A stretch of 64,000 nt of DNA from Cyanobium sp. CZS48M (GCA_030373145.1 JAUCZK010000006.1:1-64000); one strand, 5' to 3'; shown: positions 45,436-58,322, counted from the stretch's first letter. A program made the numbers and translations. Notes: a model not told the origin generated them from the letters alone.

Positions 45436-47241
45436 ATGGCCCTGCTGGTTCAGAAATTCGGGGGAACCTCCGTCGGCAGCGTGGAGCGGATCCAGGCGGT
45501 GGCACAGCGGATCGCCGCCAGCCGCGAGCAGGGCCATGACCTGGTGATCGTGGTCTCGGCCATGGGCCACACCACCGATGAGCTCACTTCCCTGGCGCGG
45601 GCACTCTGCCCTGAGCCCCCCCAGCGGGAGATGGACATGCTGCTGGCCACCGGTGAGCAGGTGTCGATCGCCCTGCTGGCCATGGCCCTGCACAGCATCG
45701 GCGTGCCGGCCGTGTCGATGACGGGGCCCCAGGTGGGCATCGTGACCGAATCAGCCCACGGCCGCGCCCGCATCCTCGAGGTGCGCACCGAGCGGTTGCG
45801 CAAACGACTCGAGGATGGCCAGGTGGTGGTGGTGGCCGGCTTCCAGGGCACCAGCAGCGGCAGTGCCGGCACGCCCGAAATCACCACCCTGGGCCGGGGC
45901 GGCTCCGACACCTCCGCCGTGGCCCTCGCCGCGGCCCTCGGGGCCGACGCCTGCGAGATCTACACCGATGTGCCCGGGGTGCTCACCACCGACCCGCGCC
46001 AGGTGAGCGATGCCCAGCTGATGGAGGAAGTGAGCTGCAACGAGATGCTGGAGCTGGCCAGCCTCGGTGCGGCGGTGCTGCATCCTCGTGCCGTCGAAAT
46101 CGCCCGCAACTACGGCGTGCCCCTGGTGGTGCGCTCCAGCTGGAGCGATGCGCCCGGCACTCGGCTCACCAGCGGCATGCCCCGGCCGATCGGCAGCGAG
46201 GGACTGGAACTGGGCCGCCCGGTGGACGGGGCGGATCTGGAGAGCCAGCAGGCGGTGCTGGCCCTCACCAGGGTGCCCGACCACCCCGGGGTGGCCGCCC
46301 TGCTGTTCGAGGCCCTCTCCGCGGCGGGGCTGAACGTGGATCTGATCGTGCAGGCCACCCATGTGGGCGCCAGCAACGACATTGCCTTCACCCTCTCGGA
46401 GAGCGAGCTGGAGGCGGCGCGCGCAGTCTGTCGCGGCCTGCTCCAACAGCTGGATGTGGAAGAGAGCGCCCTGAGCACCCAGGGCGGATTGGCCAAGCTC
46501 AGCATTTCCGGGGCCGGGATCATGGGGCGCCCGGGCATCGCCGCCCGTCTGTTCGACACCCTGGCCCGCTACGGCATCAACCTGCGCATGATCGCCACCA
46601 GTGAGGTGAAGGTGAGCTGTCTGGTGGAGGGCAGCCAGGGGGCCCGGGCCCTGCGCGCCGCCGCCGAGGTGTTCGAACTGCAGGAGCACCAGCTGCGCCA
46701 GAACCCGCTCCCCTGCGACGTGAGCGATCCGGCGGTGCGCGGCGTGGCCCTGGATCGCCACCAGGCCCAGGTGGTGGTCCGCCAGATTCCCGATCGCCCA
46801 GGCACAGCCGCCGCCGTCTGCCGGGCCCTGGCCGATGCCGGCATCAGCCTCGACACCATCGTCCAGTCGGAGCGCACCCACGGCTCGGGCCCGCAGCTCA
46901 GCCGCGACATGAGCTTCACCCTGCGCCGCGATGACCTCAACCGAGCCCGCCTGGCCCTGCAGCCGGTGCTCGCCCCCTGGCCTGAGGCTCGCTTCGAGGA
47001 GGGGCTGGCCATCGCCCGGGTGAGCGCCGTGGGCGCGGGCATGCCCTGCACCCACGGCACCGCCGCCCGCATGTTCCGAGCCCTGGCGGAGGCCGGTGTG
47101 AACATCGAGATGATCGCCACCAGCGAGATCCGCACCAGCTGCGTGGTGGCGGAGGCCGATGGTGTCAAGGCCCTGCAGGCCGTGCATGCCTGCTTCCAGC
47201 TGGGCGGCAGCACCACCGCAGAGATGGAGGCCATGGCCTAG
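45436..47241 (+). CDS. lysC: Aspartate kinase with four ACT domains
   Basis: First step of Lys/Thr/Met synthesis. The 601-residue protein has the kinase domain MALLVQKFGGTSVGSVERIQ ... GRGGSDTSAVALAAALGADA ... EIYTDVPGVLTTDPR, then four ACT domains: two around ALTRVPDHPGVAALLFEAL and ISGAGIMGRPGIAARLFDTL, and two around VVRQIPDRPGTAAAVCRAL and VSAVGAGMPCTHGTAARMF. The doubled ACT pair is the cyanobacterial layout, binding Lys and Thr for feedback control. ATG 45436 starts the conserved sequence. Its TAG overlaps the next GTG by one base. Confidence 0.95.
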   Translation: MALLVQKFGGTSVGSVERIQAVAQRIAASREQGHDLVIVVSAMGHTTDELTSLARALCPEPPQREMDMLLATGEQVSIALLAMALHSIGVPAVSMTGPQVGIVTESAHGRARILEVRTERLRKRLEDGQVVVVAGFQGTSSGSAGTPEITTLGRGGSDTSAVALAAALGADACEIYTDVPGVLTTDPRQVSDAQLMEEVSCNEMLELASLGAAVLHPRAVEIARNYGVPLVVRSSWSDAPGTRLTSGMPRPIGSEGLELGRPVDGADLESQQAVLALTRVPDHPGVAALLFEALSAAGLNVDLIVQATHVGASNDIAFTLSESELEAARAVCRGLLQQLDVEESALSTQGGLAKLSISGAGIMGRPGIAARLFDTLARYGINLRMIATSEVKVSCLVEGSQGARALRAAAEVFELQEHQLRQNPLPCDVSDPAVRGVALDRHQAQVVVRQIPDRPGTAAAVCRALADAGISLDTIVQSERTHGSGPQLSRDMSFTLRRDDLNRARLALQPVLAPWPEARFEEGLAIARVSAVGAGMPCTHGTAARMFRALAEAGVNIEMIATSEIRTSCVVAEADGVKALQAVHACFQLGGSTTAEMEAMA

Positions 47242-48575
47242 TGCACTGGTTGCGCCACCGCCGCTGGCTGGCCCTGGCCGCGGGCCTGGATGCCCTGGGG
47301 GTCTGTCTGCTGGCGGCCTGGATCGATCGGGAACGGGAAGGCTTTCTGAACAATCAGCTGGGCCTGCTGGCGATGCTGGTGGCGGTCTATCTCAGCCTCG
47401 GCTGGCTGTTCGGGTCCTTCACCCTGGTCAAGACCCGGCGCCTGCGCTGGAGCCAGCTGATCGTGCGCCTGGCCATCACCAGTGCCGCCACCACCGCCAC
47501 CGGCGCCGTGCTGGGCTGGTTGCTGCGCACCGCCCCCGAAGTGACGCTGCTGCACCGGGGCAGCCTGATGCCGCTGTTCACCCTGGCGGCCCTCTGGAGC
47601 GCAGGCGTGCGGCTGCTGCTGCGCCAGCTGGCCCACTCCACCAGGCAGGACCAGTGGCAGATCGTCAGTCTTCCCGACGAGCAGGAGGCGATCAGGGCTG
47701 AATGGGAGCGCATCGGGGCCATGCGGGCTCCAGCCATTCATGTGCTGGGTGAAGGTTTGAGCGTGATCGAGAGCGAGCAGGCCGGCGATGCGAGCATCGG
47801 CCTCGCCCTCAGCCAGGGGGTGCTCCAGCAACCCGATGGTCTTGATTCCTGTGCCCGGGTCCTGGCGGAGGGACGGGCCGTCACCTCACTGGCGCTGGCG
47901 GCGGAGCAGGAGCTGCAGCGCATCCCTCCGCGCTGGGTGGAGGATCAGTGGCTGCTGTTCTCCGACCGCAGCGAGCAGCGTGGTGGCGGCTTCGAGCGTC
48001 AGCTCAAACGCTACGCCGATGTGATGGTGAGTCTGCTGCTGCTGCTGCTCTGCACTCCGCTGCTGGCCATCGCCGCCGCCTTGATCCGCCTGACGGATAG
48101 CGGGCCGGTGCTCTACCGGCAATGGCGCACAGGCCTGCAGGGCCAGCGCTTCGAGGTGATCAAACTGAGGACGATGGTCCCCGATGCGGAGGAAGAGGGG
48201 GAGGCGATCTGGTCAGGTCCCAACGACAGTCGCATCACCCCGGTGGGCCACTGGCTGCGGCGCACCCGACTCGATGAGTTGCCACAGCTGATCAACGTGC
48301 TGCGGGGTGAAATGAGCCTGATCGGCCCGCGGCCGGAGCGGCCGGAACTGGAAACCGACCTGGAGCGGCGCATCCCCAACTATCGGCTGCGCCACTGGAT
48401 CCGGCCGGGACTGAGCGGCTGGGCTCAGGTAAACATTCCTTACACCTCCACAGTGGAGGACGCTGAGCTGAAGCTGAGTTACGACCTCTTTTACCTACGC
48501 AACAGCAGCATCTGGCTGGATCTGCTGATCCTGTTCAAGACAATCAAGATCGTGCTCAAGGGCGCTGGGCGCTGA
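47241..48575 (+). CDS. Polyprenyl-phosphate sugar-1-phosphate transferase (initiating glycosyltransferase)
   Basis: A 444-residue membrane enzyme of the bacterial sugar transferase family that loads the first sugar phosphate onto undecaprenyl phosphate. Four or five hydrophobic helices (about residues 8-130) precede a soluble spacer. The catalytic domain (about 255-440) has the insertion helix VMVSLLLLLLCTPLLAIAAA, FEVIKLRTMVPDAE, ITPVGHWLRRTRLDELPQLI, NVLRGEMSLIGPRPERPE and RPGLSGWAQVN. All family motifs are intact. It is joined to lysC by a one-base overlap (TAGTG) and is the only accessory gene on the plus strand here. Confidence 0.92.
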   Translation: MHWLRHRRWLALAAGLDALGVCLLAAWIDREREGFLNNQLGLLAMLVAVYLSLGWLFGSFTLVKTRRLRWSQLIVRLAITSAATTATGAVLGWLLRTAPEVTLLHRGSLMPLFTLAALWSAGVRLLLRQLAHSTRQDQWQIVSLPDEQEAIRAEWERIGAMRAPAIHVLGEGLSVIESEQAGDASIGLALSQGVLQQPDGLDSCARVLAEGRAVTSLALAAEQELQRIPPRWVEDQWLLFSDRSEQRGGGFERQLKRYADVMVSLLLLLLCTPLLAIAAALIRLTDSGPVLYRQWRTGLQGQRFEVIKLRTMVPDAEEEGEAIWSGPNDSRITPVGHWLRRTRLDELPQLINVLRGEMSLIGPRPERPELETDLERRIPNYRLRHWIRPGLSGWAQVNIPYTSTVEDAELKLSYDLFYLRNSSIWLDLLILFKTIKIVLKGAGR

Positions 48576-48630: not shown

Positions 48631-50067
48631 TCAATCAAGAGAAAAGGTCGGCAGAAATTTCGCCACATTGCATAGCTCAATATCAATAGCCCCAACATCG
48701 GTGAAGTCTCGATTCGTATCCCTTGTTCGCTCAATAAATCGCGCCGTACGATCCGGGTGCTTCGTCAGCCTGACGAGGCGGTCAACCCAGTTGCTACGGG
48801 GCACTTGGGGCATCAAGCCCTGAAGCCCGAGGAACCAGGGAATCAGCGAACCTGTGAGATTGAGTGCTTCAGACGATCGATGCGGGAATGATGGCATGGA
48901 GATCCTGATCGAACGAATAAATGCAAGCTGCGATTCGGTGAGCACCAATGGCTCAGACAACTTCATGAGATCTGCCCCGGTTGCACTCAAAGCATCAAGA
49001 AAACGACCAGGATGGCTGCGATAAGACTCGAAGCAAGTGGCAGGCCTGAGCTCATCTGCAAGAAGACATCGCTTCATCCATTCGAGATCAACACGACCAA
49101 GCGAGTGGTCGTTGTGGCAATCGTAGATACGTCCTTTGTCATACCGTACCGGGCAGAGATACCCAGGATCCACCAACTCAGAAGCCGCGGCATGATCCCC
49201 ACAGATCACCGGCAACCCTGCGTAACTCGCCTCAATCAGAACACGGCCCAGGGTTTCCAGATTGGAGGTACTGGGGAAAAGTAGAACATCAATCTCTGCC
49301 AAAAAATCCCAGATCTCAGCATGAGCTCGAGGAGGGAAGTAGCGAAAGACATCGGAGGATCCGAGGGCTTCTACCAACTCCTGTTCAACTAACTGCGGCG
49401 TACACCTGGAGGAATGGACATGTCCGCAGGCGAACAGAGTGAACCGACGATGTGACGTCGAGGCTCCTGCGGAATTCAGATCAATCAGCAACCGAATGAG
49501 ATCCGGAAAGTTCTTATCCTCGGAGATGCGTCCCAGATAACCAAGAATCAATCCAGAATCAGCCTTAGCAAAGCGTTTGCGCCGGACCAGCCGACGATCC
49601 GCAAAGCAGGCCGCTAGCGGGTAACAACGAAGTGCGGGGAAAGATGCAAGGAGCGGGAAAAATGCTTCATAGACACCCTGTGCATAGAAACTGGAAACCA
49701 GAATGGTGTCGTCTTGCCGCAAGAAAGGATGGCAAAGATACTCCTGAAAAAGATAACTGCTCCAGATGGCCGTACGCACATCTCTGACGATACGGTATGA
49801 GAGCGCAAGGCGCTCTCGAAGATAGAAGTAATAATGCGCATGAGGCCCCACATTGCTGACCACACAATCAGCGTCGGCCAGCATCTCAATCGCATAAGCA
49901 TCATCAGCAAGCAACCTGTTAAAATCATGGAACTGCACCTTCAAGGCAGGCCCTGGCCGATGCTTCAACAGCCAGGCAATACTCTCGTGCGCTAGGTTGA
50001 CACCATCACGCTGGGGAAGCGCTGGATCAGTGCAATAGTCATGAAGTGCAACTCTGAGGCTTTTCAG
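48631..50067 (-). CDS. GT4 family glycosyltransferase, probable CTG start
   Basis: A 478-residue GT-B glycosyltransferase. Clear motifs are GLILGYLGRISEDKNFPDLI, FTLFACGHVH and LLFPSTSNLETLGRVLIEAS (the donor-site E-x7-E region), with AGLPVICGDHAAASELV after it. The first ATG/GTG/TTG (TTG 49968) would cut off good sequence upstream, LKSLRVALHDYCTDPALPQR and then DGVNLAHESIAWLL, the GT4 opening. In that frame the only start candidate is CTG 50067-50065, overlapping the TGA of the upstream gene (CTGA) with GGGGAGAG six bases upstream. The last quarter is unassigned. It is less G+C-rich than the core genes. Confidence 0.82.
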   Translation of the reverse strand: MKSLRVALHDYCTDPALPQRDGVNLAHESIAWLLKHRPGPALKVQFHDFNRLLADDAYAIEMLADADCVVSNVGPHAHYYFYLRERLALSYRIVRDVRTAIWSSYLFQEYLCHPFLRQDDTILVSSFYAQGVYEAFFPLLASFPALRCYPLAACFADRRLVRRKRFAKADSGLILGYLGRISEDKNFPDLIRLLIDLNSAGASTSHRRFTLFACGHVHSSRCTPQLVEQELVEALGSSDVFRYFPPRAHAEIWDFLAEIDVLLFPSTSNLETLGRVLIEASYAGLPVICGDHAAASELVDPGYLCPVRYDKGRIYDCHNDHSLGRVDLEWMKRCLLADELRPATCFESYRSHPGRFLDALSATGADLMKLSEPLVLTESQLAFIRSIRISMPSFPHRSSEALNLTGSLIPWFLGLQGLMPQVPRSNWVDRLVRLTKHPDRTARFIERTRDTNRDFTDVGAIDIELCNVAKFLPTFSLD

Positions 50068-51677
50068 ATTAAACTCTCCCCATCCATTCTCTGATCTGCT
50101 GTTAGGCCTGCCAGCGCAAGAATCGTTGCCGGCAGGTCCTCCAGTCGACCAGGGCCCAGCTTGGTGCCTGGCTTGATGTCTGGACCTATAGCAAGAATCA
50201 GGTTACTAACCTCGGTGCCATGCATCACATGCCCTCCGGAACGGAAAAAGGGAAGGGGGCCGATCCGGCCATACTCTTCGCATTCCAAAGCATCAGCTGG
50301 AGGCCCTGAATCACTCCATCGTACGATCATATCTGGAGGAAGATGAATCTTTTCGAAAGGTGTGTCTCGCATGATCAGCACATCATGAACCATGGGCTGA
50401 CCGGTGCGTGGGTTAACGCAACGCACCAATAGGTTACGCAACTCCAGCAAAGTGGGGCCAAATTCCTCCGGGTCTATGAGGCCACAGGCCTCCCGCCCAC
50501 GCACATTCAGGCGCACGTATCCATCGGACACACTGGGGAGAGCAAAAGCACGCATATGGGGCCAGAGATTCTTGTACCAATTGGCCGGATTCCAGCTGAG
50601 TGGGTCCGCCTGGGCCTCCTGCTCAAAGGGGCTGGCGATCCGAGCTCGTGCTTCCTCCGCCACGGTCTGCCAGACCTCGGCCTTCCAGTGATTGCTGTAG
50701 TCAAAACGAGGTGGTGGCAGAGATGATCCGGCCATGGAAAGAGATCCTAGGCCCATCTCACCTGGAAACGCCCAGCGATACAATAGCTCAGGCAAAAGTG
50801 CAAAGCTAGGGACATCCATATGGTTAGCTACAGTATGATCTATAGTATAGACCATAAAAATTGCTTCCTCGGGTGCATCCGAATACAGAGCGGAGAGCGA
50901 GTGATCGATCTCACGATACACATCTAGCAACATTGAGTCGCCTGAAAACCATGGATCATGAAGGGGATGAGGCTCACCGACATGCCAAAGAAGGTGATTA
51001 GCGGTATGGCTTTCCGAGTAAAGGGAAAGGAAGAGATTCCAGCGTTCTGCCTGTAGGAGATCAGCGCAGATAGCCGTACGGCGACGTACAGACTCAAAGA
51101 GCTGCTCCCGCAGCCTAAAAAGCTCTTCCTTGATATAGATACTTGGCAGAGGAACAGAACGTTCAAGTCGACCTGAAATCGGATCGATCACTGTCTGTTG
51201 GCCATCAGTGATCCTGGGGTTGACTCCATGGACAGCCTCGAGTTTGGCCAACATTCCATCGGGCTTGCTCAGAGGAACCCAGGCGTTGAGCTCACTGGCC
51301 CAGCCAGTTACTTGTATGCCATCGACACGATCGACGATCGGTGCCGGCAGATCGAATGCACAGATGAGACGGCTCGGGTGGCCGGAATAAAACGGCGGCG
51401 CAAAGCCTACATTCTGATAGAGCGGAAGATTGGCATAGGAATACGAAGATGCATCGAAGCAGGATCCTGGATTCTGCAAGCTCTGACCAGAGAAGAAAAC
51501 GTCCCAACAGCGCTCATTCCGGAACAGCTTGGTGTACAAGCATTGGCCAAAGGCGCCTTGTGAGCGCATCCTGGCCAGAAAGGGGAGATCTCCGTCATCC
51601 ATACCAGCCAGGAGAAGATTATTATTAGGGGCGTCGATTCCGAGCGCAATGACCGGATGTTCTCTTGAGTCCGCCAT
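50064..51677 (-). CDS. Alkaline-phosphatase-superfamily phosphodiesterase/nucleotide pyrophosphatase
   Basis: A 537-residue protein without an evident signal peptide. PVIALGIDAPNNNLLLAG supplies the first metal Asp (residue 15); SESHTANHLLWHV near 230, VYTIDHTVANHMD near 275 and SGGHVMHGTEVSNLILAIGP near 483 supply the metal His and Asp residues of the type I phosphodiesterase fold. In the place of the Thr nucleophile the segment is FRNERCWDVFFSG, where the Thr is missing, so the reaction may differ from the usual hydrolysis. It is the third of four genes in a run with two cyanophycin-synthetase-like ligases. Substrate unknown. Confidence 0.75.
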   Translation of the reverse strand: MADSREHPVIALGIDAPNNNLLLAGMDDGDLPFLARMRSQGAFGQCLYTKLFRNERCWDVFFSGQSLQNPGSCFDASSYSYANLPLYQNVGFAPPFYSGHPSRLICAFDLPAPIVDRVDGIQVTGWASELNAWVPLSKPDGMLAKLEAVHGVNPRITDGQQTVIDPISGRLERSVPLPSIYIKEELFRLREQLFESVRRRTAICADLLQAERWNLFLSLYSESHTANHLLWHVGEPHPLHDPWFSGDSMLLDVYREIDHSLSALYSDAPEEAIFMVYTIDHTVANHMDVPSFALLPELLYRWAFPGEMGLGSLSMAGSSLPPPRFDYSNHWKAEVWQTVAEEARARIASPFEQEAQADPLSWNPANWYKNLWPHMRAFALPSVSDGYVRLNVRGREACGLIDPEEFGPTLLELRNLLVRCVNPRTGQPMVHDVLIMRDTPFEKIHLPPDMIVRWSDSGPPADALECEEYGRIGPLPFFRSGGHVMHGTEVSNLILAIGPDIKPGTKLGPGRLEDLPATILALAGLTADQRMDGESLI

Positions 51678-51711
51678 TGAACAGCAGCAATTGAAGAGCT
51701 AGAGTGGAAGG

Positions 51712-53592
51712 CTAGGCTAAGTCCATATCGGCACAATCAGGCCTCCGCAGATCATCAACGTGGGGTTTGACCAACCGCAGGATCCGTCTGGAGGCGTGGC
51801 TCACCTTCGCCGCCAATCCAAGCAAGGTGCCCGTAGCAAATTCAGGAGCCGGAAGACCTCGCTGCAGAATTTCGCTGACGCTCATCACAATCAGGCCCGA
51901 TGTCAAGGCCTGATCATGGATCATGGACTGAGCGGCAGAGAAGCCGCTGGAGGGCTGACAAGCCAACGCCTTACCGGCAATCCAAACACCTTCCGCAAGC
52001 GCCAGCCCATTGCAGTTCAGCTGCTGCAGCAACCTTTGGGCTTCCCTATGCAGGATTCCGGTCTCCATACCGTCCGGGTTGACCAAGAGGTGCAGGACAA
52101 CAGATTCTGCTGACTGAAACATACTGGCCAGGATTTCCCGGTAGATCATGGGAGTGTCACGGATACCGATCTGAGGTTGAGCATTCACCTCGCAGATGAT
52201 GCCTCCTCGATCCTTCCAGGATGCTTTCACATCGGGAATGATCAGGTCGATCCCAGCAATGTCCAGCCGGAAGGTTCGTGCAACCTGAAGAGCGAGTTCT
52301 AGATTCTCGGGGTGAACCTGCTCGTGGGCGATCAAGATATGGGATCCACCAGCAGAGATGTTGGCCTTGCCACGCAGGCGCACAACACGGCCTTCTTCTG
52401 GAATCGATTCGGAACTAAGACCCTGGTGGGTCAGCAGCATCTGAGCCTCAGCATCAAGCTCAAGGCGCATCTTCCCGGACATTCGCAGGATCTTTTGGCT
52501 CCGCTCCGTCCCCTGCTCTCGGGCAACAAGTCCATCAATGGTTGTCATACCATCGCCGATCACTCGACCCGGAACTCTATGCATGATCTTGACGATCTGA
52601 CCATGGGCAACCGTAAATCGATAGTCTTCGCCAAAGATAAACTTTTCGACAAGGATCTTTCTAGAAAGCTTTGCTGCTTCACGATAAGCCAGTGCAACCG
52701 ATTGTTCATCCCGCAATCCGGCAAAGACCCCGCGCCCCTGCTCCTGATCCGCAGGCTTAATCACCACAGGATAGCCAAGATCACCAGCCAATCTGATCGC
52801 CTCCTCCTCCGAGCGGCAGACCTTATGGGTGGGCCCTGGCAGCCCATGATGATTGAGGAAGAGGGCTGTCCGCTCCTTGTCCTTCGCCAGAGCCACGGAC
52901 ATGAAGGGTGCTTGATCTGTCAGCGAACTGTCGATCCAGCGCGTTGAGGCACCCTGGCCGATAGCCATGATGTTGCTATCGATTCGGATGGCCGGCAGGG
53001 CCAGCTCATGGGCCGCCTTGGCGAAGTAGAAATTGTTGGTACCCTTAAGGCCAAAGACACTCAGTTGACTGATCAACTGATCCCTACTCTTGCGAATCTC
53101 CTCCAGGCGATTATTCACGGCAGCAGGAGATCGGGCGAAAGCATTGATCAGGGATTCGAGCCAGCGCAGGGTGTCCACCGAAGCCCGTGGGAAGGAGTAG
53201 GGCAGGAACAGATCGTGGGCCTCCAAGAAGACATCCCTTGCCTCGGTCCTTGCAGGAAACGAGTGCCAGGGTCCAAACACGGGAAGATTGGCCAGGCGCT
53301 GGAGTTCGAGATGGGTCTTCAGGATCCCATCAAGGAGATCCAGGGAAGGGATCTCTCTTCCTCCCTCGCCATGAGTTTCCTCAGGCTCCACGACCCTGGA
53401 GAGGAAGTCCCTGACCTGGTCTGCTGCTACGGGCCTGTCGCGTCGAATCTCGATCCGGCCTTCGAGAAAAGGCTGACGGATGCCGAAGCCCATGCCTTGA
53501 TAGGCCCGGAATTCGTTGGAGAACCGCAGCAGAGGGGGAGCCTTGCCTCGTGGCCCTGATCGGTTGGCCCCATCAGCTAAGGGGTGCGCCAT
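51712..53592 (-). CDS. ATP-grasp ligase related to cyanophycin synthetase, with truncated Mur-ligase-like tail
   Basis: A 626-residue protein. The N-terminal 170 residues are a cyanophycin-synthetase-like helper domain. The ATP-grasp part (about 200-490) shows GYPVVIKPADQEQGRGVFAG, KILVEKFIFGEDYRFTVAHG, HRVPGRVIGDGMTTIDGL, RLRGKANISAGGSHI and the metal-binding ICEVNAQPQIG. The last 110 residues (GLALAEGVWIAGKALACQ ... SGLIVMSVSEILQRGLPAP) line up with the middle of the Mur-ligase half of CphA, but the P-loop and most of that half are missing. This recalls CphA2-type enzymes. It probably joins amino acids through an acyl-phosphate; the substrate is unknown. Starts three bases after the full-length paralogue. 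Confidence 0.78.
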   Translation of the reverse strand: MAHPLADGANRSGPRGKAPPLLRFSNEFRAYQGMGFGIRQPFLEGRIEIRRDRPVAADQVRDFLSRVVEPEETHGEGGREIPSLDLLDGILKTHLELQRLANLPVFGPWHSFPARTEARDVFLEAHDLFLPYSFPRASVDTLRWLESLINAFARSPAAVNNRLEEIRKSRDQLISQLSVFGLKGTNNFYFAKAAHELALPAIRIDSNIMAIGQGASTRWIDSSLTDQAPFMSVALAKDKERTALFLNHHGLPGPTHKVCRSEEEAIRLAGDLGYPVVIKPADQEQGRGVFAGLRDEQSVALAYREAAKLSRKILVEKFIFGEDYRFTVAHGQIVKIMHRVPGRVIGDGMTTIDGLVAREQGTERSQKILRMSGKMRLELDAEAQMLLTHQGLSSESIPEEGRVVRLRGKANISAGGSHILIAHEQVHPENLELALQVARTFRLDIAGIDLIIPDVKASWKDRGGIICEVNAQPQIGIRDTPMIYREILASMFQSAESVVLHLLVNPDGMETGILHREAQRLLQQLNCNGLALAEGVWIAGKALACQPSSGFSAAQSMIHDQALTSGLIVMSVSEILQRGLPAPEFATGTLLGLAAKVSHASRRILRLVKPHVDDLRRPDCADMDLA

Positions 53593-53595
53593 GAC

Positions 53596-56184
53596 TCAGG
53601 CTCCCAGGACTTCGGACCGATCCAGGGATTCCGTATGGAGCCACTCCAGGATACGTGCCTTGGCCGTATGGACATCGAGAGCATGGACCAGGACGGGATC
53701 TCCCGGAGCGGCATCCTTGAGGAAAGTGGGGATGGCGGCATGGACCTCGCCGACGTAGCGAAGGTCCACCCCTGGATCGGCCCCAAAACCAGCCTCAAGA
53801 ATCATGGCCACAGCCTCTTCCTCAACGCGATCAGCGCAGGACTCACCACGCGCGATGTCGACAACATCGAACAGCCGACAAGCTTCAGCGGCCATGGAGC
53901 ACATCCAGTGATCAGCGGCGCTGAAGCCCAGTCGAAGCAAGATCCGTGTGCGTGAGTGCAGCTCCGTTCTGAGCGACTCCATCAGCACAGCCAGAGACCG
54001 CAGCGCTTCAGGAGTCCCCGCCCAGCTCAGAACGATGGATTGCCCAGGGGTGTCGATTCTTTCAGCCCGGCCTGGATTGAGGCTGGCATCGAAGCCGAGA
54101 ATTCGTTCCCGGATCAGATCAGGGGCCACGCCCATCCGCTCGGACATCACCGCCACGAAAGCTGCAGCGATGACCGTGGCGCGACACATCCCTCCCCAGG
54201 CCCCTTGAATCTCCGCTGCCGGAATTTCACACAATGTGGTGTCGCCGCGACAAAGGACCACCACCCCATCCGGTCCATCCCGCCAGAGGGCGCCCAGGCC
54301 TCCGGATGCGAGATGGTCGCGGAGCAGCCCATGGGGTGGCATGGATCCGACCAGACAGTGCTCGCAGGAGGCCTGACGGTCGTAGACCCCTCGCAGCAGG
54401 GGGTCATCAACATTCAGGACAAGGGCCTGGGTGGCGGCACGGGCGACAAGAGACTTGATCTGCAGCAGATCCTCCCGTGTCGATACACCATCTTCGCCAA
54501 GATGGGCATCCAGGATGTTGAGCATGGCGCCGACATCGGCCTCCCGCAGCCTCAGTCCCCCCTTGAGCAATCCTCCGCGCGACACTTCACCCACCACGAC
54601 CTCGACGCGAGGATCCTGGAGAAACTGGCGGATGGTGCCTCCATGGGCCGAATCCTCCTGCTTGAAGACCAGATTGTCCAGCTGCGCGCCCGAGGTGGAG
54701 CCGACAGCCACCCGGCGCCCGGTCCCGCGCAGCACGTGGGCCAGCATGCGGGTCGTGGTGGTCTTGCCGATACTGCCGGTCACCAGGGCCGTCGGGATCC
54801 GTGCCATCTCCGGACCTCCAGTCCAGCGAAGCACCAGCCTGCGGCAAAGGTCGGACTCGGGATCCGCCACCAGATGGGGACGCAGGCCCGGCGAGAGGTT
54901 GGCCTCCAGGACCCGGAGACCCCCTTCGGTCCAGGACCTGCCGACATCCATAGCCATCACATCAAGGCCAAGGACATCCGCCCCCAGCAGGGAGGCGACA
55001 TCCTGGGCAAGGAGACGGTTGTCAGGGTGGAGCAGATCCGTCACATCAATGGCACCACCTCCCTGAGAGAGGTTGGCGGTTCGGGAGAGCTGAACACGCC
55101 GACCCGCTGCGGGCACGGACTTCAGCGTCATGCCCTGCCGGGCCAGTTCCGCCTGCAGGCGTTCGTCCAGGGGAATGCGGTTCATCAACCGCTCGTAGGC
55201 CACACCGCGCCGAGAATCACTATTGACTTCTCTGATCAGATCATCCAGAGAACGGCTCCCATCCCCACACACCTCGGCTGGATGCCGTCGGGCCACGGCC
55301 ATGACCTCACCGTCACAGATCAGGAGGCGGTGATCATGGCCGGGCAGCACCTCCTGAACCACTTGGGCCGATCCGTCGGCCGCATTGACCGTCCAGGCGC
55401 GCTCGAGCGCCCCACGCTCGGCCAGCCCCACCCAGACGCCCTTGCCCTTCCCCCCCGATGCCGGCTTGAGCACAACGGGCCAGCCGAGAGAACCGGCGGC
55501 CTCCAGGGCCTGATCCCAGGTGCGGGCGATCCGCTGCCGTGGGAGGGGAAGACCATGGCCGGCGAGGACCTGATGGAGGGATTCCTTGCCATGAAACTGC
55601 TTGGCGAAGAGGGTCGTCCGGTCGGTGAGGGTTTCATGCAGCAGGCGCCGTCTCGCCCCGTGGCCGAGCTGAAGGAACTGCTGGCCAACCCGCTCGACGC
55701 GGAAGTACGGCACACCCAGAGCACTAGCGGCTCGGGCCAGATGGGCATGGGTCTGATTCCAGCGGCGGCCGTGGAGCGCGCGGCAGACCTTGACATCCTG
55801 CAGTGAGGGCCGACCACCACCCCATGCACCGTTGAACCAACGACAGAGGAACTGTGCGGCAAAAACTGCCCCTGGGCCATCATCCATCGGCAGCCAGAGC
55901 CTGAGCTCCGTTGCCGTCGTCGTCAGGATCCTCGGCTCAGAAGGCTCAAGCCGGCAGAACTCCGTGAGCACCATGAGCGCCCGAGTCATCACGACGGGCA
56001 ACTTCCCAAGGAGATCGACGCCTGGCAGTACTGATGTCAAAATTGAGAAGCCATTGATCCAGCCCAGCAGGGCCTCCGGCTCGGGCGAAGAATTTCCTGG
56101 AAGATCAGCGAAGTGGAGCACGGCCCCGCTGGTGGGCCCCATCAGATTGAGGCCCTCAAGCAGCTGGCAGCCGGCAACCCTCAC
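53596..56184 (-). CDS. Cyanophycin synthetase-like ligase (ATP-grasp plus Mur ligase)
   Basis: An 862-residue relative of CphA. Residues 1-160 resemble the CphA N-domain (MRVAGCQLLEGLNLMGPTSG). The ATP-grasp domain (about 190-460) has GWPVVLKPASGGKGKGVWVG, VQEVLPGHDHRLLICDGEV, QLSRTANLSQGGGAIDV and VLEANLSPGLRPH. The Mur-ligase half starts with the P-loop VTGSIGKTTTTRMLAHVL (Lys 474), then VVVGEVSRGGLLKGGLRL and MLNILDAHLGEDGV. The later Mur motif D-Y-A-H-x-P is S-W-A-G-T-P (about residues 720-725), losing Asp and His, so the second half may not act as in true CphA. GTG start one base after uvrB, with GGAAGG eight bases upstream. Confidence 0.82.
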   Translation of the reverse strand: MRVAGCQLLEGLNLMGPTSGAVLHFADLPGNSSPEPEALLGWINGFSILTSVLPGVDLLGKLPVVMTRALMVLTEFCRLEPSEPRILTTTATELRLWLPMDDGPGAVFAAQFLCRWFNGAWGGGRPSLQDVKVCRALHGRRWNQTHAHLARAASALGVPYFRVERVGQQFLQLGHGARRRLLHETLTDRTTLFAKQFHGKESLHQVLAGHGLPLPRQRIARTWDQALEAAGSLGWPVVLKPASGGKGKGVWVGLAERGALERAWTVNAADGSAQVVQEVLPGHDHRLLICDGEVMAVARRHPAEVCGDGSRSLDDLIREVNSDSRRGVAYERLMNRIPLDERLQAELARQGMTLKSVPAAGRRVQLSRTANLSQGGGAIDVTDLLHPDNRLLAQDVASLLGADVLGLDVMAMDVGRSWTEGGLRVLEANLSPGLRPHLVADPESDLCRRLVLRWTGGPEMARIPTALVTGSIGKTTTTRMLAHVLRGTGRRVAVGSTSGAQLDNLVFKQEDSAHGGTIRQFLQDPRVEVVVGEVSRGGLLKGGLRLREADVGAMLNILDAHLGEDGVSTREDLLQIKSLVARAATQALVLNVDDPLLRGVYDRQASCEHCLVGSMPPHGLLRDHLASGGLGALWRDGPDGVVVLCRGDTTLCEIPAAEIQGAWGGMCRATVIAAAFVAVMSERMGVAPDLIRERILGFDASLNPGRAERIDTPGQSIVLSWAGTPEALRSLAVLMESLRTELHSRTRILLRLGFSAADHWMCSMAAEACRLFDVVDIARGESCADRVEEEAVAMILEAGFGADPGVDLRYVGEVHAAIPTFLKDAAPGDPVLVHALDVHTAKARILEWLHTESLDRSEVLGA

Positions 56185-56185
56185 C

Positions 56186-58192
56186 TCAAGCCCTTCCCAC
56201 CAGTTTCTGACGCAGCTTCTTGATGCGGTCGCGCAGGTTGGCGGCCTCCTCGAATTCCAGATTCTTGGCGGCGGCCTTCATCTTGTCCTCCAACTCCAGG
56301 ATCAGTTCCGGCAGGGCATCGAGGGGCACCATCGCGAACGATGCCGGCTCAGCCTCAGCGGCGGGTGCATCATCCTGAGCGCGTCTGGATACTTCCAGGA
56401 AGCTGAGGATGGCATTGCCGGCCCGCTTGCCGGCGGGGCTGGGGGTGATGCCGTGGGTCTCGTTGTAGGCCTGCTGAATCTCGCGGCGGCGTTCGGTTTC
56501 GGAGATGGCGCGGGCCATCGAATCGGTGAGGTTGTCGGCATAGAGCAGAGCTGTGCCATCCACATGGCGGGCCGCCCGACCGATGGTCTGGATCAAGGAG
56601 CGCTCCGCCCGCAGGAATCCCTCCTTGTCGGCATCGAGAATCGCCACCAAGGACACCTCCGGCAGGTCCAGACCTTCCCGCAGCAGGTTCACCCCCACCA
56701 GGGCATCGAATTCACCGTTGCGCAGATCCTGAATGATCTCGATCCGCTCGATCGAATGGATCTCCGAGTGCAGATAGCGCACCCGCACGCCATTTTCAGC
56801 AAGGTAATCGGTGAGGTCCTCGGCCATTCGTTTGGTCAGGGTGGTGATCAAGGTGCGCTCGTCCCGCCCGGCCCGCAGGCGGATTTCGCCGAGCAGATCA
56901 TCCACCTGACCCTCGCTGGGGCGCACCTCCACCACCGGATCCAGCACCCCTGTGGGGCGGATCACCTGCTGGGCCACATGGCCGTGACTCTGGTCCATCT
57001 CCCAGGTGCCTGGGGTGGCTGACACGAAGATGGTCTGATGGGCCTTCGACCAGAACTCCTCGGCCTTGAGCGGACGGTTGTCGGCGGCGCTGGGCAACCG
57101 GAAGCCATGCTCCACCAGCACCTGCTTGCGGGCCTGGTCGCCGTTGTACATGGCGTGGAGCTGGGAGCAGGTGACGTGGCTCTCATCCACCACCAGCAAC
57201 CAATCATCGGGGAAATAATCAATCAGGCACTCCGGTGGTGTGCCAGCCTGACGCCCCGCCAAGTGCCGAGCATAATTCTCGACGCCATTGCAGTAGCCCA
57301 CCTGCTGCAGCATCTCCAGGTCGTAGGTGGTGCGTTGCTCCAGGCGCTGGGCTTCCAACAGGCGTCCCTGGCCATGGAGAACCTCCAGGCGCTGATTCAG
57401 TTCATCGCGGATGGCGGCGATCGCGGATTCCAGCCGGTCTTTGGGTGTGACGAAGTGTTTGGCGGGGTAGATATTGATAGCTTCGAGGCTCTGGAGGATT
57501 TCGCCGGTGGTGGGATCGACATAGCGAATCGCCTCCACCTCATCGCCGAACAGTTCAATGCGCACCAGCCGATCTTCATAGGCGGGGCCGATCTCGAGCA
57601 CATCCCCTTTGACGCGGAAGCGGCCGCGGCCCACTTCGATGTCGTTGCGGGAATACTGGTTGTTGACCAGCTCGCGCAGGGAGCCGCGCAGATTGAGGGA
57701 CTCGCCCACCTGAAAGCGCACGGCCGCCTTGAGGTATTCCGAGGGAATGCCGAGGCCATAGATGCAACTGATCGAGGCCACCACGATCACATCCTGCCGT
57801 TCGAACAGTGAACGGGTAGCGGAGTGACGCAGCATATCGATCTCTTCATTGATCGATGCTGTTTTGGCGATGTAGGTATCGGAGACCGGCACATAGGCCT
57901 CCGGCTGGTAATAGTCGTAGTAAGAGATGAAATATTCGACGGCGTTGTTCGGGAAGAACTCCCTCAACTCATTGCAGAGCTGAGCGGCCAGGGTCTTGTT
58001 GTGGGCCAGCACCAGGGCCGGGCGGCCGGTGCGGGCGATCACATTGGCGATGGTGAAGGTTTTACCGGTGCCCGTGGCCCCCAGCAGGGTCTGGTAGCGC
58101 TCACCGGCATCGACACCCTCCACGAGGGCCTCAATGGCCGTGGGTTGGTCGCCCTTGGGCTCGTAGGGAGCCTGGAGCTCGAAGCGCGCCAT
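56186..58192 (-). CDS. uvrB: UvrABC excinuclease subunit B
   Basis: Damage-verifying helicase of nucleotide excision repair. The 668-residue protein starts [20 protein letters not shown], then Walker [17 protein letters not shown], the beta-hairpin region [30 protein letters not shown], the helicase motifs [12 protein letters not shown] and [27 protein letters not shown], and the C-terminal UVR domain [17 protein letters not shown]. Family length is about 660-680. ATG 58192 is preferred to an upstream TTG at 58231, because it starts the conserved sequence. In other picocyanobacteria uvrB is close to lysC; here 9 kb of accessory genes separate them. Confidence 0.97.
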
Positions 58193-58322
58193 GGCCGCTG
58201 GATCCAGGTGGTCCCTGGACAAACACAGCACCGATCCTAGGAATCAGCCAAGGCCTGCGTTCGCTGTTCTGGATGCCGATCGCTGAGACAGACTGCGAAC
58301 GCGGTTAACGCAGCCATCACAT

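Follow-up and report, generated by a model that had tools for sequence, protein, structure and literature searches.

The stretch of DNA analyzed here, 64,000 nucleotides from Cyanobium sp. CZS48M (GCA_030373145.1 JAUCZK010000006.1:1-64000; referred to in the following as the window), carries a block of four genes, coding for a long and a short ligase of the cyanophycin synthetase (CphA) superfamily, LigL and LigS, a putative phosphodiesterase of the alkaline phosphatase (AlkP) superfamily, PDE, and a glycosyltransferase, GT4. The conserved core of this block is LigS–PDE–GT4, and LigL is a cyanobacterial addition. We consider it probable, though by a distance not certain, that the core is a cytosolic, horizontally transferred cassette that makes a small glycosylated amide or oligopeptide and not cyanophycin, the nitrogen-storage polymer for which the CphA family is known. 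The sequence-only reading of the window had proposed an amino-acid polymer or a peptide cap placed on a sugar or lipid carrier; the departure from cyanophycin held up, while the specific product stays a matter of inference. No published description of the cassette was found in a search of the open literature, which did not extend to subscription papers.

A three-gene core shared with Pseudomonadota

A search of 85,000 species genomes with PDE retrieved loci from Pseudomonadota, with neighboring genes called mechanically as in all the compared loci. LigS, PDE and GT4 were found together in nine of these loci. Gene order and strand were kept in Quisquiliibacterium transsilvanicum, Ramlibacter sp. 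WS9, Inhella gelatinilytica, a metagenome-assembled genome (MAG) of Sphingomonadales and several Burkholderiales/Burkholderiaceae loci. In another MAG (L111), LigS is convergent and lies downstream, and in a Porticoccaceae locus (L117) the contig is cut and probably frameshifted. The latter shows LigS and PDE in a single 957-aa frame, joined by a stretch of low complexity that is out of register; this is probably the frameshift, and we do not claim a fusion. LigL was missing from the Pseudomonadota cassettes.

Over the alignments, the window proteins are 40–52% (PDE and GT4) and 33–39% (LigS) identical to the Pseudomonadota copies. The three cyanobacterial PDEs nest within the Pseudomonadota cassette clade of the PDE tree (support 100/99), far from the cyanobacterial PDEs associated with exopolysaccharide (EPS) genes. 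The evolutionary distances of LigS, PDE and GT4 correlate in a mirror-tree comparison (r 0.76–0.95), and the G+C content of the triad is 52–57%, against 62–72% in the flanks. Taken together, the synteny, the nested cyanobacterial PDEs, the gap in G+C content and the correlated distances point to a functional unit that was transferred horizontally. No match to GT4 and no cassette was found on the plasmids in PLSDB.

The two ligases are distinct from cyanophycin synthetases

The nearest characterized proteins for both ligases are the cyanophycin synthetases CphA1 and CphA2. When scored against the cyanophycin synthetase model TIGR02068, as the sequence-only reading had suggested, LigL reached 458 bits and LigS 246 bits, both far under the curated cut-off of 850. 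In a tree of the ATP-grasp domains, LigL, the cassette LigS proteins, CphA1 and CphA2 formed four separate clades, each well supported (100/100 for CphA2 and 100/99 for the other three), and the LigS of the window grouped with the Pseudomonadota cassette ligases in their own clade.

Residues to which a role in CphA1 has been assigned (PMC9427784, PMC9262961) were read off an alignment. E215 contacts the Arg side chain of the primer, R458 holds the alpha-carboxylate of the incoming Asp, and Ala mutants of E215 and H267 lose activity (PMC9427784); a Cx19HxxEH site in the N domain occurs in ≈83% of CphA1 proteins (PMC9262961). LigL and LigS both retain the catalytic core of the ATP-grasp domain (K220, K261, R309, R323, D431 and E450) and the Gomega pair N394/S396. 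E215 is gone from both, replaced by Lys in LigL and Ala in LigS. At position 267, LigL shares Lys with CphA2 while LigS has Gln, and R458 is retained in LigL and replaced by Gly in LigS, where CphA2 has an aromatic residue.

LigL resembles CphA1 (PDB 7wae, 7lg5) in its N–G–M domain order, intact ATP-grasp core, Asp-recognition residues and M-domain P-loop (K499), and its M domain also keeps E558, R561 and H586. It differs from CphA1 by its separate clade and low profile score, by the changes at positions 215 and 267, and in the M domain, where D585 is Ala (Ala or Asn in the comparison) and neither the DYAH nor the GGxGDR motif is retained. The Cx19HxxEH hydrolase site was absent from the N domain of LigL in the alignment. 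The sequence-only reading had correctly noticed the lost DYAH motif, which is missing across the LigL subfamily. LigS, in turn, resembles CphA2 (PDB 7ta5, 8fxh; ≈630 aa) in size, in combining an ATP-grasp domain with a reduced Mur-like tail, and in fold: its model (predicted local distance difference test score, pLDDT, 86) matches the CphA1/CphA2 fold, with a Z score of 25.6 to 7ta5 and a further match to 8fxh. LigS lacks a Mur P-loop. It differs from CphA2 in its clade, in positions 267 and 458 and in having PDE and GT4 as partners instead of cyanophycinase.

Searches with the cyanophycinase model TIGR02069 gave no match in eight cassette or LigL genomes. The model likewise matched nothing in the window genome (G000), the congeners tested, G003 and G089. 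As a positive control, a genome with a true CphA1 (G040) carries cyanophycinase directly beside cphA, and the enzyme was also found in two CphA2 genomes (G134 and G188). A normal cyanophycin locus, or one that has drifted slightly, with CphA1 and CphA2 next to unrelated genes, would agree with the best characterized relatives of both ligases and with the CphA2-like size and architecture of LigS. However, it is contradicted by the clade placement and TIGR02068 scores, by the loss of E215, D585, DYAH and the N-domain HxxEH site, by the lack of a cyanophycinase match in the genome and by the conservation of PDE and GT4 as neighbors, and we rejected it as scarcely credible. The sequence-only reading had likewise argued against an ordinary cyanophycin locus, and that view is supported by finding both ligases outside the CphA1 and CphA2 clades and PDE and GT4 beside the short ligase in unrelated genomes.

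A second CphA1-like protein, of 1125 aa, was seen in another genome, G194 (L100, 8424-11801); its ATP-grasp domain is intact and its Mur domain is changed, with Ala after the P-loop Lys and no DYAH motif.

PDE has an AlkP fold with a substituted nucleophile

PDE had no match in Pfam and no significant sequence match in the PDB. Its model (pLDDT 92) has an alkaline phosphatase fold, nearest to PafA, iPGM and the nucleotide pyrophosphatases (NPP), with Z scores of ≈22. It shares with the type I phosphodiesterases/nucleotide pyrophosphatases of PF01663 the fold and several residues of the metal-ligand type, D15, E222, H224/H228, D280 and H483, which, together with D258, are invariant among the 12 cassette PDEs. 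Unlike those enzymes, it lacks a signal peptide and has Asn followed by an invariant Glu in the place of the Thr nucleophile. The nucleophile position, in the motif before WTxFLTG, is Asn54 in all 12 cassette members and mostly Ala in other relatives; Glu55 follows in all 12 and in 23 of 24 members of the wider family.

That the Thr nucleophile is missing had been recognized from the sequence and taken as a sign of changed chemistry. The loss is real, but it is a fixed trait of the wider family and not a defect of one gene. The Asn–Glu pattern of the cassette PDEs suggests altered chemistry rather than decay. A pseudogene is disfavored, since the variant site is invariant in all 12 members and the gene is under purifying selection (see below).

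AlkP-fold proteins without the Thr nucleophile make up a wide cyanobacterial family (L012, L022, L024, L028 and other PDE loci), often present as tandem copies inside exopolysaccharide and glycosyltransferase clusters. In a Chromatiaceae MAG (L116, 8529-11578), a PDE relative directly follows the gene for an AMP-binding enzyme, which takes the place of LigS.

GT4

GT4 matches Glycos_transf_1 (PF00534) with 58.4 bits, against a gathering score of 26.4. While it shares this domain with the GT4 glycosyltransferases, it has conserved motifs of its own at both ends, PQ[KR]DGVN[LF]AHE at the N-terminus and DFTxxGxxDxELC at the C-terminus, and its similarity to the GT4 proteins of related genomes is weak (best E ≈ 1e-10).

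LigL relatives and related clusters

Matches to LigL at E < 1e-110 occurred solely within the family of the host. Relatives are full-length in four genomes (G002, G031, G423 and G448) and shortened in a fifth (G337). Three of the five (G423, G337 and G448) carry a cluster with a LigS-like ligase, a small unknown protein, a P450, a TauD oxygenase and, last, LigL. In G448 the contig ends within the first ligase, while the G337 cluster has TauD and LigL frames that seem truncated and no listed gene for the small protein. The settings of these ligases, and of the other related ones described below, resemble those of small-molecule biosynthesis.

These clusters bear on another explanation, that the genes make an amino-acid storage polymer other than cyanophycin. 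LigL does keep the Asp-recognition residues R323, N394, S396 and R458 and the M-domain P-loop. However, there is no recognizable depolymerase, LigL is absent from every Pseudomonadota cassette, and the P450 and TauD partners fit a small molecule better, so that we think such a polymer quite improbable.

Several other arrangements were observed. G002 (L056) and G031 (L057) have a set resembling the P450/TauD cluster that does not include LigL. In G002 (L054, 11722-16155), the LigL relative lies between a methyltransferase gene, before it, and a CapA/PGA_cap gene, after it. G448 has a 1114-aa fusion (L090, 4630-7974) of an adenylation domain (AMP-binding plus AMP-binding_C) of the nonribosomal peptide synthetase (NRPS) type to a CphA-like ATP-grasp ligase. 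A locus of ≈13 kb in a Burkholderiaceae MAG (L112, 1728-14451) encodes four CphA-like ligases, a methyltransferase, a dehydrogenase of the 6-phosphogluconate dehydrogenase (6PGDH) type, PDE and GT4.

A possible pathway and its alternatives

In the pathway that we favor, LigS would activate a carboxylate as an acyl-phosphate and couple it to an amine, forming an amide. GT4 would glycosylate the LigS product or a precursor, and the substrate of PDE would be an ester intermediate of the phosphate or sulfate type, processed at a metal site in which Asn–Glu stands in for the Thr nucleophile. In picocyanobacteria, LigL might perform a second amino-acid ligation.

Alternatively, the cassette could modify a surface polysaccharide or capsule, with the ligases placing an amino acid or short peptide on a sugar, and GT4 and PDE acting on the glycan or on a lipid-linked precursor. 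Distant PDE relatives in filamentous cyanobacteria do sit among glycosyltransferase, polysaccharide-chain-length/kinase-like and flippase-type genes, the LigL of G002 adjoins a CapA-type PGA_cap gene, and the Inhella cassette adjoins another GT4 and ABC exporters. On the other hand, the cassette PDEs form a clade apart from the EPS-associated one, neither a polymerase nor a flippase is a constant member of the cassette, and a scan of all four window proteins found no membrane or signal segments. The EPS sugar-transferase gene next to the block in the window does not help this case: it is ancestral at the site and present without the cassette in congeners, and we therefore rejected a link between the two as coincidental. 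Surface modification is the main rival, but we regard it as unlikely.

Some points also weigh against the small glycosylated product that we prefer. The product and all of the catalytic steps are inferred. Because PDE served to retrieve the Pseudomonadota loci, the co-occurrence of the three genes is conditional on it; common descent inflates the mirror-tree correlation; and the trees were rooted at the midpoint only. No exporter, precursor peptide or carrier protein was constant across the cassette loci, and PDE might be a structural partner that has no catalytic activity.

A broader proposal, which we make tentatively and which is rather less probable than the cassette reading itself, is that these loci might represent a new class of pathway. 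Here, stand-alone CphA-like ligases, and not NRPSs or ribosomes, would build amides or small peptides, which would then receive a sugar and undergo processing by an AlkP-fold enzyme via a new Asn–Glu active site. Horizontal transfer would have carried the pathway between picocyanobacteria and Pseudomonadota, and it would have diversified by taking on P450, TauD, methyltransferase and adenylation partners.

In two phyla, then, at least two further subfamilies of CphA-family ligases form part of conserved cassettes of several enzymes, together with AlkP-fold and sugar-transferring partners. Both ligases are picked up by curated cyanophycin synthetase models, with scores under the cut-offs, and such loci are therefore easily misread as nitrogen storage. 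The three-gene core is compact and its carriers are named (Synechococcus sp. Cruz-7E5, Synechococcus sp. SynAce01, Ramlibacter and Inhella), which makes the product directly testable, and the mechanism of an AlkP-fold enzyme with a conserved Asn–Glu substitution is a well-defined question to ask.

Layout of the locus and the uvrB site

The window lies on contig C6 of a 2.77-Mb picocyanobacterial genome, from a rare Synechococcus-type cyanobacterium. The block (Table 1) consists, as the sequence-only reading had it, of four packed minus-strand genes, with 1 base between uvrB and LigL, 3 between LigL and LigS and 34 between LigS and PDE, followed by the overlap of PDE and GT4. Its domain assignments were upheld as well, with RimK/ATP-grasp and Mur_ligase_M in LigL, a RimK ATP-grasp alone in LigS and Glycos_transf_1 in GT4. 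A mechanical open reading frame (ORF) caller puts the start of GT4 at a later TTG, at 49968. However, the codons from 50067, LKSLRVALHDYCTDPALPQRDGVNLAHESI, agree with the N-termini of homologues, including those from other phyla, and we therefore place the start at the CTG at 50067. Compared with Synechococcus sp. Cruz-7E5, the ratio of nonsynonymous to synonymous substitution rates (dN/dS) is 0.16–0.23 for all four genes, indicating purifying selection and, hence, that they are more than chance ORFs.

Table 1. Positions of the four-gene block, its flanks and the related two-ligase clusters.
Feature	Position	Strand	Description
LigL	53596..56184	-	862-aa CphA-superfamily ligase; N-G-M architecture, N domain divergent, ATP-grasp intact
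LigS	51712..53592	-	626-aa CphA2-sized predicted ATP-grasp amide ligase without working Mur domain
PDE	50064..51677	-	537-aa alkaline-phosphatase-superfamily protein; Asn54-Glu55 in Thr nucleophile region
GT4	48631..50067	-	478-aa GT-B glycosyltransferase; CTG start, CTGA overlap with PDE
uvrB	56186-58231	-	flank of four-gene block
EPS sugar-transferase gene	47241-48575	+	other flank of block
≈7.6-kb segment	48576..56185	.	missing at same site in seven congeners and SynAce01
Two-ligase P450/TauD cluster type	L085 2274-10313; L086 292-6775; L084 117-6127		G423, G337, G448

The EPS sugar-transferase gene is the immediate neighbor of uvrB in seven congeners and in SynAce01, at a distance of ≈10–55 bases. 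All four genes are present at the same uvrB site in Cruz-7E5, whereas SynAce01 has the four-gene block at another site. An operon partnership with uvrB was rejected, as the uvrB neighborhood is intact without the block and the SynAce01 block lies elsewhere. The block thus travels without uvrB, as the sequence-only reading had raised, and LigS–PDE–GT4 recurs in unrelated genomes.

The spacer 3' of uvrB in several congeners, most clearly in G001, is similar to the opening 30 bases of LigL, scoring 35 where shuffled sequences reached 26 at most. The block may therefore once have been present in these congeners and later lost; alternatively, the native spacer supplied the first codons of LigL. In SynAce01 (L109, 5421-8086), LigL is cut by a transposase-like insertion element, which removed its first 631 residues, while LigS, PDE and GT4 are intact.

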